From a bacterium (GTDB lineage: Bacteria; Armatimonadota; Zipacnadia; Zipacnadales; UBA11051), in the NCBI GenBank assembly GCA_030604405.1, contig JAUVVY010000042.1, positions 1 to 32,742 on the forward strand: 32,742 nt of DNA, given 5' to 3'. Positions within the stretch are counted from its first letter, which is position 1. Each line of letters opens with the position of its first letter. Below the pieces are notes generated by a model. It saw only the letters and a list, made by a program, of their open reading frames with translations. It did not search any database and was not told the DNA's origin. Below are positions 9,922 to 22,524 of this stretch, piece after piece. Made by a program: the position numbers and the translations under genes.

Positions 9922-10506
9922 CTATCGCGTCACGCGGAATACCGAAATCCCGCCGCCGTCATCAGTGCTATCATCTGTGGGAGGTGGCTGCGGGACGTAA
10001 CCACCACCCCCGCCGGAGGAGTCATCATCGTCATCGTCGTCATCGTCGTCATCGTCATCATCCCACCACCGGTCGGAGTCACGATGCCGCGGCCGCGGCT
10101 GCGACACCGGCACATTGCGGCGGAGCCTGTTCTCACCGAGCGTGGTGTGTCCCGCTCGCACTCTTATTTGCCATTGGCAAGTCGTGTACGACGGATGTGA
10201 CGCCCGCAGCGTGTATTCCCCCGGCTCGACATCAAAGAATGCGTAGGACCCGTCCCAGGAGGTGCGTGTGGTTCTCTCAGCTTGAACAAGAATGACCGTG
10301 GCCCCGGCTACGACCTTGACAACCGGATTGCTGGTCCGACCTGACAGTAGATACAGCAGGGAATCGGCAGTGTCAGCGGCGGCTTGGACGGCGTCGCCGT
10401 AGATGTAGCCGACGGCGTCGCCCGTAGTGGCGCCCTCGGAACCTCCGCAGCCGACCAGCAGCAGTGGCAGAATTATCAGAATGCTCAATACGCAATAGCG
10501 CATCAT
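9922..10506 (-). CDS. Lipoprotein with carboxypeptidase-regulatory-like domain and poly-Asp tract
   Basis: This 194-residue lipoprotein has a signal peptide (MMRYCVLSILIILPLLLVGC) with a good lipobox, LVGC. Residues about 62-115 form a carboxypeptidase-regulatory-like beta-sandwich: VVAGATVILVQ, then TSWDGSYAFFDVEPGEYTLRA, the typical Gly-Xaa-Tyr-Xaa-Phe turn. The C-terminal part is low complexity: Arg/Asp-rich, then 14 consecutive Asp (14 mixed GAT/GAC codons, 10023-10064), a Gly run and a Pro- and Asp-rich end. Poly-Asp suggests calcium or cation binding or a surface-exposed linker; this is inference. ATG 10506 follows GAGG by five bases and lies 16 bases after the TPR gene stop, so the two are one transcript. 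Confidence 0.75.
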   Translation of the reverse strand: MMRYCVLSILIILPLLLVGCGGSEGATTGDAVGYIYGDAVQAAADTADSLLYLLSGRTSNPVVKVVAGATVILVQAERTTRTSWDGSYAFFDVEPGEYTLRASHPSYTTCQWQIRVRAGHTTLGENRLRRNVPVSQPRPRHRDSDRWWDDDDDDDDDDDDDDSSGGGGGYVPQPPPTDDSTDDGGGISVFRVTR

Positions 10507-10522
10507 ATACACCTCGTCGATC

Positions 10523-11887
10523 CTATTGCCCGCGTATGCGCTGGCGGGCCTTGGCCAGGTTGTCACGAGCGGCTTTGTAGTCGGGTTTCAACTCAAGCGC
10601 CCTTTCATATTCTCCTGCAGCCACGCGATACATGTACTTGGCCATGAATAGGTTGCCCAGGTTATTGTGGGCATACGCGGCTGCGATCGGATTATTGCCC
10701 AGACTGATTGCCTCGCGGTAGCTGTATTCAGCCTCGCTCGTCCGCCCCATCTGCTTGTAAGTCACACCCATGTTCACATACGCCATCGCGTACCATGGCT
10801 GGATGTCCAGAACGCGCCGATAATGCTCCAGCGCCTCGGAATATTTCTTCTGTTGGCGAAGCAGGTCTCCCCATGTTTTCTCGGCGAAGGCGGCGGCTTT
10901 CAGGTCGCTTTCTTGAGTCGCCGCGCCCTGCAGATGCCCCACGGCGGCTCGGTAGTCTTTCCGAATCCGCTCCAGCAGACCTAGATTGGCCGTGGCCATG
11001 GCGTAATCGGGCCACAAGCCCAGAGCCATTCGATACTGCCGCTCAGCACCCGGCAGATCTTTGCGCGATAGCAACAGCGTCCCCAGGTTGTTCGTGGCGT
11101 AGGCCACAGCGAGGGGGTCCGAGCCCTGACCGGCCACCTGCTGCCACAGACTATCCGCCCGGCCCGTATCGCCGAGCATGAAACACACGCTGGCCAGATT
11201 AGCTTGCGCGCGCGGCCAGTGCTCGCCCAGCCGCAGCGCGGCTTCGTATTCCTCCCGCGCCTCTTCCCAACGCCCAACGTCACGCAGCAGGTTCGCCCGC
11301 TGGTGCCGCGCCAGAGCGAAGTCAGGGTCATAGCCGAGCGCTTCCTGGTATTTGTCGAGTGCCAGTTCAGCCTGCTCGTAGCTGCACTGCGCGGCACGAG
11401 CCACCATGAAAGCCTGCGCAGCTTCCTCGCTGTCGGTCAGGTGGGATTGCTGGAGTCCGGAGACGCTGAGTGTCCCAACTAGTTGCGCGCACGCCTTGCG
11501 CAATAACTCAGCACATCTTTCGGCCCCGATAGGGGACATGTCCGCCTGTGCGCCCTGCACATCCAAGACCAGTTGCAGATTCGGCAGCCGGGTCAATTCG
11601 CCCGAGATAACAATGTCCGCGCGGAGCAGTGTCGCAGCGCGCTCCGGCGCAGGCGCAGCGCCAACAGCAAAACGATCGAGCGCAGACAGCACCTGCTCGT
11701 CACTGAGCACGATGTAGTCCGGGGAACTGGAGAGGGCATCCGTGATTGCAGCGGCAATGCCCGGCCCCCAGGAGTACCCACCGGCCTCGTCACTCGGAGG
11801 CAGCACCGCTATAACCGGCAACGCCGTCGCCTGCAGAGACGCGCAGAGCAGTGCAAGAGATATGAACGCAATCAGAGTCCTTTTCAT
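10523..11887 (-). CDS. Exported TPR-repeat protein with TolB/CsgG-like N-terminal domain
   Basis: This 454-residue protein starts with a signal peptide (MKRTLIAFISLALLCASLQA). Residues about 25-130 resemble the N-terminal domain of TolB/CsgG/FlgO-type proteins: PVIAVLPPSDEAGGY, GIAAAITDALSSSPDYIVL, then ADIVISGELTRL. The remainder is about seven tetratricopeptide repeats with the W/L-G-Y-A-F-A-P pattern, for example EALGYDPDFALARHQRANLL and VLDIQPWYAMAYVNMGVTYK. It is likely a periplasmic scaffold. ATG 11887 gives the cleanest signal peptide. A strong promoter lies at 11939-11967. It is followed closely by the poly-Asp lipoprotein, so both may work at the same envelope site. Confidence 0.82.
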   Translation of the reverse strand: MKRTLIAFISLALLCASLQATALPVIAVLPPSDEAGGYSWGPGIAAAITDALSSSPDYIVLSDEQVLSALDRFAVGAAPAPERAATLLRADIVISGELTRLPNLQLVLDVQGAQADMSPIGAERCAELLRKACAQLVGTLSVSGLQQSHLTDSEEAAQAFMVARAAQCSYEQAELALDKYQEALGYDPDFALARHQRANLLRDVGRWEEAREEYEAALRLGEHWPRAQANLASVCFMLGDTGRADSLWQQVAGQGSDPLAVAYATNNLGTLLLSRKDLPGAERQYRMALGLWPDYAMATANLGLLERIRKDYRAAVGHLQGAATQESDLKAAAFAEKTWGDLLRQQKKYSEALEHYRRVLDIQPWYAMAYVNMGVTYKQMGRTSEAEYSYREAISLGNNPIAAAYAHNNLGNLFMAKYMYRVAAGEYERALELKPDYKAARDNLAKARQRIRGQ

Positions 11888-14700: not shown

Positions 14701-16446
14701 TCAACTTCGGCGCTTTTTGAACCAGCTTCTCAGCTTGCGCAGTGACCAGGTATTGATGACATTGTCGGCCTCGACCCAGCCGCGCCGCGCCTGCATCACA
14801 CCATAGCGCATGTGGGTGAGGCTCTCCGGGCCGTGCGCGTCGGTGTTTATGGACAGCCGGCAGCCCTGCTGGACGGCGAACCGAGCGTGGGTGTCATCCA
14901 AATCGAGCCGCTGCGGGGAGGCGTTGATTTCGAGCGCGACATCGTGTTCCGCACAGGCCGCAATGAGCTGGTCTATGTGCAGCCCGTACGGCTGGCGAGC
15001 AAGCAGTACGCGACCGGTGGGGTGGGCGACGATATCTATCATGCCGGATTTGACCGCGGCCACCATCCGCGCAGTGATCTTGTCCGCATCGGGAGAGAAG
15101 CCCTGGTGCAAGGCCCCAATTACGTAGTCGAACAACTCAAAGGTGCCCTCCGGCACGTCAACTGAGCCGTCCGAGAGTATGTCCGCCTCAATGCCCTGGA
15201 GCACCCTGAACTTGGTGCCTTCCTGTTTGAGCTTCTCGTTCAGCTTTGCGATTTCCTCATGCTGGGCTCTGACGCGGTCGGCGTCCATCCCATTGGCCAC
15301 GGTGAGCGTCTGCGAGTGGTCGGCGATGCCGATGTACGCGTAACCCAGCTCCATACACGCCCGGGCCAGCTCTTCGACAGTGGCGCGTCCATCGCTATAC
15401 TGTGAGTGCATGTGCAGGTCGCAGCGGATGTCGGAAAGCTCGATGAGTTCCGGAAGCTCATCTGCCTCGGCGGCGGTGATCTCACCCCGGTCCTCGCGCA
15501 GCTCCGGAGGTATCCACGGCAAGTCCAGCGCGGCGTACACGTCCTCTTCAGCGGTCCCGGCGACCATATCGCCCTTCTCTTCCTTGTCGGCTTTGAATAC
15601 GCCGTATTCGTTGACGGTCAGGGCCATTCTTTGCGCGCGCTCGCGGAGGCGGATATTGTGCTGCTGCGAGCCGGTGAAGTACTGCAAGGCCGCGCCGAAT
15701 GACGCCTCTGCCACCACGCGCAAGTCCACTTGCCGACCGCCTGCCAGGCGACCGCTCACCTTTGTGTCACCGGCCATCGTCAGCTCCTCCAGTATCTCCA
15801 GCCCGGCGAACCATTTGCAGACCCCCGCAGGATCCGCGGAGCTAGCCAGCAGGTCCAGATCGCCCACGGTCTCCCGGTGCCGCCGGGTGCTGCCGGCGAA
15901 CTCGGCGCGGATCACGTCGGGGTGCTCCCGCAGCCTCGCCACCAGGTCCTCGGCCACCGGCAGCATCTCCCCCAGCAACGCCCGCTGCTGGCCCTCGCGG
16001 TAGGCGTCTATGGAGTTGATGATGTTGTCTTCGGTCTTGGCACCCATGCCCGGCAAATCCTGCAGCCGCCCGGCAGCGGCGGCCTCTTCCAGCTCATCAA
16101 CCGTGCTGATCCCCAGCTCTCGGAAAACTACCGCCGCCTTGCGCGGCCCGAAGCCGGAAATCCTCAGCATCTCCAGCAGGCTTTCCGGATATTGTGCAAG
16201 CAGGGCCTCTTTTTCCTCCGAGGTGCCGGTGTTGACGAGCTCTTCGACTATCCTGGCGATGCTCTTGCCGATGCCGGGCACATCAGTCAGCCGGCTCTCG
16301 GCCAGCAACACCGCAACATCTTCGGGCAGCTCAGCGATGCTATCCACGGCCCGGCGGAAGCTGCGCACCCGAAAGACGTTGGCATCGGCGATCTCCAGCA
16401 GATCGGCGATGTCTTCCAGTTCCTGTGCGACATCTTCGTTAGTCAT
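14701..16446 (-). CDS. polX: Family X DNA polymerase/3'-5' exonuclease PolX
   Basis: This 581-residue bacterial PolX has the standard two-part structure. The N-terminal half carries helix-hairpin-helix motifs (DVPGIGKSIARIVEELV, DLPGMGAKTEDNII) and a polymerase beta palm with GDLDLLAS and QVDLRVV carrying the metal-binding Asp residues. The C-terminal half is a PHP phosphoesterase: CDLHMHSQYSDGRATVEELA, IGIADHSQTL, IVAHPTGR, ALEINASP and NTDAHG, all intact. The enzyme fills short gaps and removes damaged 3' ends in base excision repair. ATG 16446 has GGGAG seven bases upstream. It follows the propeller glycosidase-like gene by 66 bases in the same direction. Confidence 0.94.
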   Translation of the reverse strand: MTNEDVAQELEDIADLLEIADANVFRVRSFRRAVDSIAELPEDVAVLLAESRLTDVPGIGKSIARIVEELVNTGTSEEKEALLAQYPESLLEMLRISGFGPRKAAVVFRELGISTVDELEEAAAAGRLQDLPGMGAKTEDNIINSIDAYREGQQRALLGEMLPVAEDLVARLREHPDVIRAEFAGSTRRHRETVGDLDLLASSADPAGVCKWFAGLEILEELTMAGDTKVSGRLAGGRQVDLRVVAEASFGAALQYFTGSQQHNIRLRERAQRMALTVNEYGVFKADKEEKGDMVAGTAEEDVYAALDLPWIPPELREDRGEITAAEADELPELIELSDIRCDLHMHSQYSDGRATVEELARACMELGYAYIGIADHSQTLTVANGMDADRVRAQHEEIAKLNEKLKQEGTKFRVLQGIEADILSDGSVDVPEGTFELFDYVIGALHQGFSPDADKITARMVAAVKSGMIDIVAHPTGRVLLARQPYGLHIDQLIAACAEHDVALEINASPQRLDLDDTHARFAVQQGCRLSINTDAHGPESLTHMRYGVMQARRGWVEADNVINTWSLRKLRSWFKKRRS

Positions 16447-19750: not shown

Positions 19751-20506
19751 TCAGAGCCGCCCGTTCGTCCCGCGAAGCTGCCTGATGAACTTGCGGCTTT
19801 TCGTTTCGACGCCGAACTGGTGGTCGGTGTGTGCGTCAATAAAGCGGCGGATCTGCCCGCGAGCCTCGTCGCCGAGGCTCAGCCGGCCCAGCTTGTCCGG
19901 CGGCATGCGCTGGATGCTTTGCACGGTCCCACGCGCTTCGGCAGACAGCAGCATAGCATTTTCCCGCGGCCGACAGCCGCCGCACACCAGCCCGGCATCG
20001 GCAGGCACGTACCACCCATCCCCGCTCAGAGCAGCCCGGCACCGGCAGCACACCTCCAGATCGGGCGCCAAACCGTGGGCCTGAAAAAGCCTCATCAGAT
20101 ATGACCACAAGACCAACTCCGGATCAAGAGCATCACACAGGGCCGAGTAGGTGGCCGCCAGCCGTTCAAACAGACCGGGCAGCGGGTGGTCGGGTTCGCA
20201 GGTCTTAGCGGTCAGCTCCGCGATATAGGAGGCGTAGGCCAGGCGGGTCATGTCCTGCCGTAGCGCATAATGGGCCTCGATGACCTCGACCTGGATCAGG
20301 CGGTCGAGGTCGCGGCCCTCGGCGAACATCAGCTTTGAGAGGGTGAAAAGTTCCACGGCGGCGGCCAGTTTGCTGGCCGGCCGCCCAATGCCCTGTGCCA
20401 CCGCCTCCACCTTGCCCCGGGTTGGCGTGTAGAAGCTGACGACCCGCCCCGTGCCTTTGTACTTGCGAACCAGAAGCGTAATCCCCAGAGTCGAGTAGGT
20501 TGCCAT
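19751..20506 (-). CDS. recO: DNA repair protein RecO
   Basis: This 251-residue RecO helps RecR load RecA onto SSB-coated single-stranded DNA in recombinational gap repair. The N-terminal OB fold is visible (TLGITLLVRKYKGTGRVVSF and YTPTRGKVEAVAQGIGRPAS), then a helical region, and the zinc finger CCRCRAALSGDGW...CGGC. ATG 20506 has its ribosome binding site (GAGG) overlapping the deoC stop codon, only seven bases away, so translation is coupled to deoC. The frame extends further upstream but that part is inside deoC and proline-rich. It ends the acyltransferase-trpC-like-deoC-recO series. Confidence 0.92.
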   Translation of the reverse strand: MATYSTLGITLLVRKYKGTGRVVSFYTPTRGKVEAVAQGIGRPASKLAAAVELFTLSKLMFAEGRDLDRLIQVEVIEAHYALRQDMTRLAYASYIAELTAKTCEPDHPLPGLFERLAATYSALCDALDPELVLWSYLMRLFQAHGLAPDLEVCCRCRAALSGDGWYVPADAGLVCGGCRPRENAMLLSAEARGTVQSIQRMPPDKLGRLSLGDEARGQIRRFIDAHTDHQFGVETKSRKFIRQLRGTNGRL

Positions 20507-20513
20507 AACTGCC

Positions 20514-21191
20514 TCAGATGCCCAATTCGGCGATGATAGTGGCGGTGGCGCTGGTGCCGATGCGGTTGGCCCCGGCCGCAAGCATCGCCTGCATGTCGGC
20601 CAGACCCCGGATACCGCCGGCGGCTTTTACGCCCATCTCCGGCGGTGCCAGTCGCCGCAGCAGCGCCACATGCTCGACAGTCGCCCCGTGGGTGCCAAAG
20701 CCGGTGGAGGTCTTGACGAACTGCGCCCCGCCTTCGACCGCTGCAACAACGCCGTGGGCAATCTCCTCCTCGTCAAGGTAGCAGGTCTCCAGGATCACTT
20801 TAAGCAGAGGGCCATCGGCAGATGCGTCCATGCTCTGCGCCACTGCGGTGATGTCTGCCCTGACATTGTAGTATTGGCGCGAGCGCAGGGCCGGGATGTT
20901 GATAACCATGTCCAGCTCGGCGCAGCCGGCTTGGATCAGCGCTGCGGCCTCCAGGGCCTTGGTATCCGCCATTGCGAAGCCAAACGGAAAGCCGACCACC
21001 GAGCTGACAGGCGTCGGGGCGTCGGCAAGCCGGTGTAATGCCAGTTGCACCCACGCCGGGGGCACGCAGATGCTGCTCAGGCGGTGCTGTGTGCCTGTGT
21101 CGCACGCCTCGATGATGTCATCACGTGTGCAATCCGGCTTCAGCACCGCGTGGTCAATCAGCGCCAGCAACTCGACCGCAGACTTGTCCAT
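20514..21191 (-). CDS. deoC: Deoxyribose-phosphate aldolase
   Basis: This 225-residue enzyme cleaves 2-deoxyribose 5-phosphate into acetaldehyde and glyceraldehyde 3-phosphate for use of deoxynucleosides. The catalytic set is intact: Asp94 in ELDMVINI, the Schiff-base Lys160 in QFVKTSTGFG, and Lys189 in GVKAAGGI. The opening DHAVLKPDCT is also the family's norm (usually DHTLLKP). AGGA lies eight bases before ATG 21191. It lies 25 bases after the TrpC-like gene and 7 before recO. Confidence 0.94.
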   Translation of the reverse strand: MDKSAVELLALIDHAVLKPDCTRDDIIEACDTGTQHRLSSICVPPAWVQLALHRLADAPTPVSSVVGFPFGFAMADTKALEAAALIQAGCAELDMVINIPALRSRQYYNVRADITAVAQSMDASADGPLLKVILETCYLDEEEIAHGVVAAVEGGAQFVKTSTGFGTHGATVEHVALLRRLAPPEMGVKAAGGIRGLADMQAMLAAGANRIGTSATATIIAELGI

Positions 21192-21216: not shown

Positions 21217-22002
21217 CTAATCCCCGCCGCGCCGGGGAATCTCGTTCAACTGCCTGATCATGACGGCGGCCTCCGAGGGGTCGTAGGATGTCGGGGCACC
21301 CATCACCGCGTTCACGCCCAGCTCGGCCAGCTCTTCCACCGCTTGGCGCGTCAGTTCCGGGACGAATGCAATCAGGCGCGCCTGCTCGGGGAAGCCGTCC
21401 GCCATGCGTGCAACCTCATCCAGCGGCACTGACGCGCTGTAGTCCCACAACAGCGGCACCGCCAGGATATATTTCGCGCCCAGCTCCACGGCACGCTTTG
21501 CCCCATCATAATCATCGACCATGATTATCGGGCTGATCTTTAGATCGTCGCAGACCGAAATCATGTGCGTAATCTGCCCGTCCGCCAGAAACGCTTCCGG
21601 AATGGTCACCGCATCACCCTGAAACACCCGCGATTCGTAGAGCTGGTAATCGTCTATTATGTAGTCGAAGCGGACGATCGGCAGCGGCATATACTTGCGT
21701 GCGCGGCGACAGCCAAACCTGTCACCATCGTGCGCCGCCGTGTCGGTACACACCGCGACAGCCACGCACCCGGCCCCGGCGTACTCCTGGCCCCAGATAC
21801 GCGGGTCAAACAGGTCCGCCAGCGCGTGATCCGGGGGCTTGATTTCACCGATGATGCCCACGGTATCAGCGTGAATGGTGGCGAGACTTCGCGCCGGCTC
21901 CTGCAGCCGCTCGATCCGCTCCTTCAGCTCAACCGCTGGCACATCCCGCCGGCAGTTGTTGACTTCTGCTTGCTTGGCCTCCAGAAGCTCAAAGGGCGTC
22001 AT
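21217..22002 (-). CDS. TrpC (indole-3-glycerol-phosphate synthase)-like paralogue with lost active site
   Basis: The 261 residues fold like indole-3-glycerol-phosphate synthase: PFELLEAKQAEV, IIGEIKPPDHALADLFDP, PIVRFDYIIDDYQLYESRV, and GVNAVMGAPTSYDPSEAA near the end. Glu53 and Lys55 remain. By my alignment with the archaeal enzyme, the general-acid Lys is Phe112, the catalytic Glu is Met161, the Asn is Val182, and the Glu-Ser pair is Phe213-Val214. The protein probably has lost synthase activity and does something else; it is not evidence for tryptophan synthesis here. GTG 22005 precedes ATG 22002; ATG suits the GGTGAG ribosome binding site. It is 24 bases from the acyltransferase and 25 from deoC. 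Confidence 0.8.
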   Translation of the reverse strand: MTPFELLEAKQAEVNNCRRDVPAVELKERIERLQEPARSLATIHADTVGIIGEIKPPDHALADLFDPRIWGQEYAGAGCVAVAVCTDTAAHDGDRFGCRRARKYMPLPIVRFDYIIDDYQLYESRVFQGDAVTIPEAFLADGQITHMISVCDDLKISPIIMVDDYDGAKRAVELGAKYILAVPLLWDYSASVPLDEVARMADGFPEQARLIAFVPELTRQAVEELAELGVNAVMGAPTSYDPSEAAVMIRQLNEIPRRGGD

Positions 22003-22026
22003 CACATCTCACCAGCTTGATTGTGC

Positions 22027-22524
22027 CTATGAATCATCAGATCTCTGTCGCAGAATACGGGCCGGATTGCCGACCACCACAGCGCCCGGCGGAACGTCCT
22101 TCGTCACCACCGACCCGGCCCCCACACCGGCTTTCTTCCCGATCGTCACACCCGGCAGAATCGTGACATGACACCCGACGTATGCACCATCCTCGATCAC
22201 GATATCCATGTTCGACGGATCGCTCTTCGGCCCGTGAGCCACCAATGTTACCTGAAAAGATATTGTAACATTGTCGCCGATGATGATGCGATGGGTGTAG
22301 AGGTCCTCAAACCACCCGTGCATGCCCACGAACCCACTCTTGCCCATCTTGATGCCGCCGAGGCGCAACAGAAATCTGCGCAACCGCGTATTGATATGCG
22401 GCAGGCCCATTGCCCACTTGTTGATGATAATAGAGCGAATCCACTGCCAGCGATAAATCTGGCGCTGGCTCATTCCCTCTCTGGTGTGCCAGAACGCCAA
22501 CAACGCCACCTCCCGAGACCTCAC
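22027..22524 (-). CDS. Left-handed beta-helix (hexapeptide) acyltransferase
   Basis: This 165-residue protein carries a hexapeptide-repeat C-terminal domain: IIIGDNVTISFQVTLVAHG, IVIEDGAYVGCHVTILPGVT, IGKKAGVGAGSVVTKDVPPG, and the VVVGNPARIL ending typical of maltose/galactoside O-acetyltransferase and colanic-acid WcaF-type enzymes. The likely reaction is O-acetyl transfer to a sugar. The N-terminal 45 residues are helical and basic. The GTG at 22524 has no clear ribosome binding site; TTG 22503 or 22500, five to eight bases after GGGAGG, are alternatives. A perfect TATAAT lies at 22559-22564. The series continues with the TrpC-like gene. Confidence 0.85.
   Translation of the reverse strand: MRSREVALLAFWHTREGMSQRQIYRWQWIRSIIINKWAMGLPHINTRLRRFLLRLGGIKMGKSGFVGMHGWFEDLYTHRIIIGDNVTISFQVTLVAHGPKSDPSNMDIVIEDGAYVGCHVTILPGVTIGKKAGVGAGSVVTKDVPPGAVVVGNPARILRQRSDDS

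Follow-up and report, generated by a model that had tools for sequence, protein, structure and literature searches.

A TrpC homologue at a former tryptophan operon site in Armatimonadota has lost catalytic residues and may persist as a partner-binding pseudoenzyme

Results

A gene in the bacterial order Zipacnadales (Armatimonadota) encodes a homologue of the tryptophan-pathway enzyme TrpC, indole-3-glycerol-phosphate (IGP) synthase (IGPS), in which most core catalytic residues are replaced; on balance, we favor the reading that it is the order's own trpC, which no longer serves tryptophan synthesis and has been preserved as a non-catalytic, partner-binding pseudoenzyme. The gene lies on the minus strand at 21217..22005 of a 32,742-nucleotide stretch (contig JAUVVY010000042.1 of assembly GCA_030604405.1, positions 1 to 32,742; here called the window) and runs for 262 codons from GTG, or 261 from an alternative ATG at 22002; stop codons interrupt the plus strand there. 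An earlier note on this DNA, made from its letters alone, was right that the open reading frame is real and gave it no strand. Its description of the product as a TrpC-fold paralogue stripped of catalytic residues is borne out by the Pfam match, the fold and the residue alignment. The only Pfam family matched is PF00218 (IGPS; E = 1.6e-20), and the protein falls far under the cut-off of every NCBIfam TrpC equivalog model, the best score being 88.5 bits against 260.

Distribution and selection

Searched with a profile of the family, 14 of 291 genomes of the phylum have a match of 349.6-433.7 bits; the match that ranks below these reaches 244.5 bits. The carriers are four of the five genomes in the window's genus (group A) and all ten in a family of the same order, f5 (group B), both groups contributing to the profile; the gene was found in none of the other 26 genomes of the order. 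A clade with comparable replacements, which the earlier note had proposed to look for, thus exists. Because three other genomes of the genus carry orthologues (91% identical in G003, 61% in G002 and 56% in G001; none was found in G004, which is 85% complete), the gene is not an assembly artefact.

The reading frame is open in all 14 genomes, with zero internal stops. Ratios of nonsynonymous to synonymous substitution (dN/dS, Nei-Gojobori) are 0.24-0.32 among the four group A genes and 0.10-0.28 in five group B pairs; those of the neighboring genes deoC, recO, polX and the acyltransferase gene are 0.07-0.23. Judged by these ratios, the degenerate gene is shown to be still under purifying selection, so that the loss of catalytic residues is found together with purifying selection, the combination expected of a pseudoenzyme.

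Catalytic and binding residues

We count residues of the window protein from GTG and name core positions by Ss numbering; the core comprises E51, K53, K110, E159, N180, R182, E210 and S211, and the pocket 27 alignment columns. In a 71-row alignment, the window protein has E54, K56, F113, M162, P184, L186, F214 and V215 at the core, that is, EKFMPLFV for the canonical EKKENRES, with two of eight residues kept (E54 and K56), six replaced, and three of the 27 pocket columns matching canonical TrpC. The residues that the earlier note had read by hand (E53, K55, F112, M161 and F213-V214, numbered from ATG) agree with this alignment. Its placement of the catalytic Asn at V182 holds insofar as there is no Asn; the alignment column falls on P183, with a one-residue gap ambiguity.

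K53, K110, E159 and N180 are reported to be essential for IGPS activity (PMC7681013); in the window protein these positions are K, F, M and P. A second study reports that a Lys119Arg mutant of the M. tuberculosis enzyme drops in kcat by more than 2700-fold, and likens this Lys to the essential E. coli Lys114 (PMC10591298); on our reading of the alignment, Lys119 corresponds to the K110 position. The retained K56 is replaced by Arg in two relatives within the genus, and 12 of the 14 family members have Arg or His at the K53 position. All 14 keep one or two of the eight core residues, versus eight of eight in the 17 intact TrpCs listed. The core reads E-K/R-F/L-M/L-P-(L/V/I)-F/Y-V/L in group A and E-R/H-W-V/M-E/D/S/H-R/S-A-H/R/Y in group B.

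Two further elements are missing from both groups: the SPS loop that follows the first Lys, and the Gly-Ser/Thr phosphate site where strand 8 ends. At Gly212, Gly233 and Ser/Thr234, which we take to be the phosphate-binding positions of IGPS, the window protein has P, A and P; group B keeps Gly212 and has Glu/Asp-Pro at the 233 and 234 positions. With the general-acid Lys, catalytic Glu, Asn and Glu-Ser pair gone from the core, and the SPS loop and phosphate-binding Gly-Ser/Thr gone as well, the window protein is very probably no longer an IGP synthase.

A second tryptophan operon and the former site of the first

The genome that contains the window (G000; 4.37 Mb, 97% complete) holds an intact trpC on another contig, C63 (109064-109819, 273 bits), the second copy for which the earlier note had suggested a check. 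It stands in the order trpE-trpG-trpD-trpC-trpB-trpA, with each gene named via NCBIfam models, and its product scores 301.7 bits with the NCBIfam TrpC model. The earlier statement that no other trp gene is present is therefore correct for the window and not for the genome. Elsewhere in this genome (L003, G000:C66:8140-8538), a weak PF00218 match of 22.5 bits, under the cut-off, lies within a 472-aa frame.

A type-II TrpC is present in 14 genomes of the order, five in the genus (counting a partial G003 copy that is absent from the trees) and nine in f5, and 13 of these bear the degenerate gene, an association that spans two clades only. In the fourteenth carrier of the degenerate gene, G019, no TrpC was found, and a trpD fragment lies at a contig end.

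Gene order, read from tblastn matches, connects the degenerate gene with the tryptophan operon of its relatives. The next same-strand match downstream is deoC in 14 of 14 genomes (within ~320 bp in 13, and at 1.2 kb in G029), followed further on by recO in 13 (none was seen in G027) and polX in ten. In the window, all on the minus strand, these are deoC, for deoxyribose-phosphate aldolase, at 20514..21191 (TIGR00126, 213.5 bits against a cut-off of 117.3); recO, which overlaps deoC, at 19751..20581; and polX, for the DNA polymerase/3'-5' exonuclease PolX, at 14701..16446 (543.9 bits). The native operon ends in trpA and then deoC in five genomes of families f2 and f3 (G007, G013, G024, G034 and G036) and in trpA and then recO in two of f4 (G009 and G014), and polX comes next in native loci where the contig extends that far; in the trp operons read from five further f3 genomes (G008, G018, G021, G026 and G037), no adjoining deoC was seen. 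Because deoC-recO-polX also follows native trp operons, the degenerate gene occupies the former site of the native trp operon, and the latter two genes, like deoC, belong to its ancestral block.

The upstream side differs between the groups. In group A the neighbor is a hexapeptide-repeat acyltransferase gene (22027..22524, minus strand, in the window), which is restricted to the genus, occurs in all four gene-bearing genomes, and is adjacent in three and 1.3 kb away in G001. There, a 421-aa frame without a Pfam match (L067:6308-7570) separates it from the IGPS-like gene. Group B loci (L073-L082) have two MocA-type oxidoreductase genes and two clusters of open reading frames of ~250 and 130 aa, to which Pfam and NCBIfam gave no assignment besides a sub-threshold seven-transmembrane (7TM) match. 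Of the ten group B genomes, eight have both MocA genes, G025 has a single one and G029 has neither, the contigs of these two ending there; in an f2 genome (G017; L131), the MocA pair directly precedes deoC with no IGPS-like gene between. Pfam and NCBIfam confirm the acyltransferase, deoC and recO neighbors named in the earlier note. The tight series is no evidence of a shared new pathway, and we rejected it as an argument for a new route composed of acyltransferase, TrpC-like protein, DeoC and RecO: downstream lies the old trp neighborhood, and the acyltransferase upstream is found in the genus only, a MocA pair taking its place in the other lineage.

Phylogeny

In a 69-row tree (LG+C20 with posterior mean site frequencies, PMSF), the 14 degenerate copies come together as one group (support 98/96) that lies within the clade of TrpCs native to the order (100/99); the intact TrpCs from the genus and from f5 fall in a clade apart (97/91). 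Two rows, G003t (partial) and G012 (cut by a contig end), were dropped, as were 14 of 20 phylum rows from the catalytic-column and approximately unbiased (AU) analyses. A and B still group together when the catalytic columns are taken out (96/80). With either group left out, the remaining one still falls among native TrpCs; from these trees we used group membership and not supports. These trees show, with a caveat for long branches, that the degenerate copies derive from the order's native TrpC.

Two constrained placements were tried and rejected. One, vertical descent within the family, placed group A with the TrpCs of G005 and G006, its sisters in that family (p-AU 0.0066); the other joined group A to the genus's own four intact TrpCs (8 rows; p-AU 0.0097).

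The other operon genes divide in a similar way: a concatenation of trpE, D, B, A and G separates the genus and f5 from the rest (100). For trpB alone the split is weaker (91/89) and G001 lies outside it; trpB of G001 is fragmented in its assembly and sits on a long end branch.

Family f6 offers observations of its own. One genome, G023, carries a separate degenerate IGPS-like gene (L083:5026-5928, G023:C751) that adjoins a trpD-like gene and groups with f6 TrpCs; it has Arg at K110, Ile-Gly for Glu-Ser and Ala for the first Lys, and keeps three of the eight core residues. Loss of catalysis may thus have happened repeatedly within the order. Two other f6 genomes (L136, G016:C8; L137, G020:C103) have a trpG-trpD-trpB-trpA operon without trpC between trpD and trpB, and the sole TrpC found in G016 lies elsewhere (L085, G016:C4), beside a second trpD-like gene.

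Where constraint lies

We measured conservation as mean pairwise identity, comparing the 27 pocket columns with the rest. The native set comprised 19 TrpCs (G014, G012, G003t and G023p were left out), and the control matched by genome left out G019p, no TrpC having been found in G019. In native TrpCs the pocket stands at 0.94 versus 0.53 elsewhere (p 4e-10), and the intact TrpCs of the carrier lineages behave alike, with pocket and rest at 0.98 and 0.62 in nine f5 genomes and at 0.98 and 0.60 in three of the genus. In the degenerate copies of matched genomes, the corresponding values are 0.67 and 0.66 (B) and 0.60 and 0.55 (A), and neither difference is significant.

Relative to the intact TrpC of the same genomes, conservation rises in helices α1, α2 and α8 by +0.30 in B and +0.33 in A and shifts by -0.04 and -0.14 in the columns outside them (p 3e-6 and 7e-6); the strands that bear the catalytic residues have lost conservation. 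Column shifts in A and B correlate with rho 0.34 over 256 columns, in part through shared canonical constraint. Helices α8, α1 and α2 are neighbors on the outer face of a (βα)8 barrel. This shift of constraint fits a loss of catalysis combined with a kept or gained protein contact.

An AlphaFold2 model of the window protein, built from four sequences, is a barrel of partial confidence, with a mean predicted local distance difference test score (pLDDT) of 63 and a predicted template modeling score (pTM) of 0.69, with residues 37-108 and 240-262 poor. Its closest structure is M. tuberculosis IGPS 3qja (Z 17.9, root-mean-square deviation 3.3, 214 residues aligned), and Foldseek was also run on the model; the best Protein Data Bank (PDB) chains by structure are 3qja and 3t44. 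The model supports an IGPS fold.

Apart from this system, a small protein encoded at 9922-10566 of the window (minus strand) has, toward its C-terminus, a run of Asp that gives way to stretches rich in Gly and in Pro.

Discussion

These observations would be accounted for if the ancestral arrangement in the order was trpEGDC..BA-deoC-recO-polX, and if in the window's genus and in f5 a second complete trpEGDCBA operon took over tryptophan synthesis. The native operon would then have been lost except for trpC, left upstream of deoC, where it would have lost catalysis and yet been kept by purifying selection. Its product would be a stable, non-catalytic (βα)8 barrel whose α8/α1/α2 face binds a protein partner; the first candidate is DeoC or a different protein encoded on that transcript. 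We name DeoC only because it is the sole constant neighbor, although its constant position may be left over from the old operon. We infer the absence of any catalysis, the binding face and the partner from sequence comparison. In a more specific and more tentative form, the resident TrpC of a displaced operon may have become a dedicated binding subunit, by its α8-α1-α2 face, of the nucleoside-sugar salvage neighborhood around DeoC or of another enzyme, giving a bacterial pseudo-IGPS family that was possibly retired twice in the order.

Several observations count against a retired, partner-binding protein of single origin. The helix set was picked after the conservation data had been inspected; native TrpC already has α1 and α2 at 0.69 and 0.70, versus 0.42 and 0.37 in the phylum, and α8, at 0.37 in the native set and 0.35 in the phylum, is the only clear new gain. 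Group A comprises four sequences, three in the matched test, which makes its conservation figures coarse. Some pocket residues are newly fixed, with Trp at K110 in ten of ten group B copies and, in all four of group A, Glu at I133 and His at F89, a pattern that a new active site would match too; the structural model is weak and does not allow an open pocket to be told from a closed one. Finally, the branches to groups A and B are long (1.81 and 0.79), and their species are not sisters, a deoC-recO-polX tree pairing the genus with G005/G006 (98) instead of f5.

Re-specialisation is common among TIM barrels, and the gene could encode a new enzyme that uses the same barrel and pocket with recruited residues (such as Glu54, His92 and Glu137 in group A) on a different, probably unphosphorylated substrate. 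Strong purifying selection, the invariant Glu at the E51 column in 14 of 14 copies, the pocket His, Glu, Cys and Asp fixed in A, and the Trp fixed in B would all suit such an enzyme; we nevertheless think it rather improbable, since the pocket in B is no better conserved than the rest, unlike that of intact TrpC in the same genomes, A and B do not share their new pocket residues, and most catalytic polar residues have become hydrophobic. Of the two functions raised in the earlier note, a reaction on a phosphorylated sugar is less favored here, the phosphate motifs being altered or lost and the pocket columns no better conserved than other columns, and a regulatory or binding role fits better, as an interpretation.

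The same long branches, the pairing of the genus with G005/G006, and the unlike replacements (F/L, M/L, P and F/Y-V/L in A; W, V/M, E/D/S/H and A-H/R/Y in B) would be expected if A and B were retired independently, each after uptake of a type-II operon, and were joined in the tree by long-branch attraction; either mode of action, binding or catalysis, would fit such a history. It seems doubtful, however, given that A+B persists without the catalytic columns, that the union of A with its family sisters is rejected by the AU test, and that both groups share a Pro that follows the E-I-K/R motif, another at the S234 column (13/14), Asp 242 (13/14) and, in α8, A246, I250 and R251. A single origin would need losses or transfer, since the species of A and B are not sisters, and the species-level history may have been one ancestral event with losses, a transfer, or two events.

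Simple decay is very unlikely: fast divergence on the stem (1.81) and the absence of the gene from the 85% complete G004 might suggest a leftover trpC under relaxed selection, but this is contradicted by intact frames throughout, by dN/dS of 0.10-0.32 over large synonymous distances, and by helices more conserved than in working TrpC. Hardly credible at all is an IGP synthase with its catalytic residues elsewhere in the sequence. Fold and Pfam family are indeed those of IGPS, but group A matches at most two of eight core residues and four of 27 pocket columns, against eight of eight in the working TrpCs compared, and the genome has another complete trp operon.

If the gene is a retired trpC kept as a pseudoenzyme, it offers a traceable fate for a core biosynthetic enzyme after an operon takeover, with one gene kept, catalysis lost and constraint changed, and an internal control is at hand in the intact TrpC that these genomes also encode. 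An annotation based solely on homology would label these genes trpC, so that the family bears on how pathways are predicted in uncultured Armatimonadota; the paper describing Zipacnadia leaves tryptophan unmentioned in its main text (PMC10290634). The idea of partner binding can be tested with a few small proteins.

Among known systems, canonical TrpC/IGPS (PF00218; 3qja and 3t44) resembles the window protein in fold, N-terminal helices and whole-length alignment, with 21% identity over 214 residues, and differs in having the catalytic Lys, Glu, Asn and Glu-Ser, the canonical SPS loop and the phosphate motif. The best PDB match by sequence (1.4e-24) is to computed Kemp eliminases and retro-aldolases on IGPS scaffolds (9hvh and 9hvg), in which the native catalytic residues are likewise replaced; these are artificial designs, and the similarity shows shared scaffold ancestry only. 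In the open-licence literature we found no report of a bacterial IGPS pseudoenzyme. The closest parallel in kind is PfAMR1, with the IGPS-like proteins of apicomplexans and chromerids: the authors state that key residues are not conserved and propose a new function, and they report that these proteins do not complement E. coli trpC, with expression unverified, and that they coexist with canonical IGPS in Vitrella (PMC6380595). PfAMR1 and the window protein are alike as IGPS-derived TIM barrels (named for triosephosphate isomerase) with key residues lost, a likeness drawn from the published description; the window protein, unlike PfAMR1, is bacterial, has no extensions and sits in a conserved gene block. 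Because the tree sets the window gene within Armatimonadota TrpC, its origin is likely independent of that of PfAMR1. A looser counterpart is TSB-like, a eudicot paralogue of tryptophan synthase beta that is reported to have lost catalysis and to bind and activate its partner TSA (PMC12727527). The window protein and TSB-like would both be dead paralogues from the tryptophan pathway, although TSB-like derives from a different enzyme with a different fold, and its partner is known.
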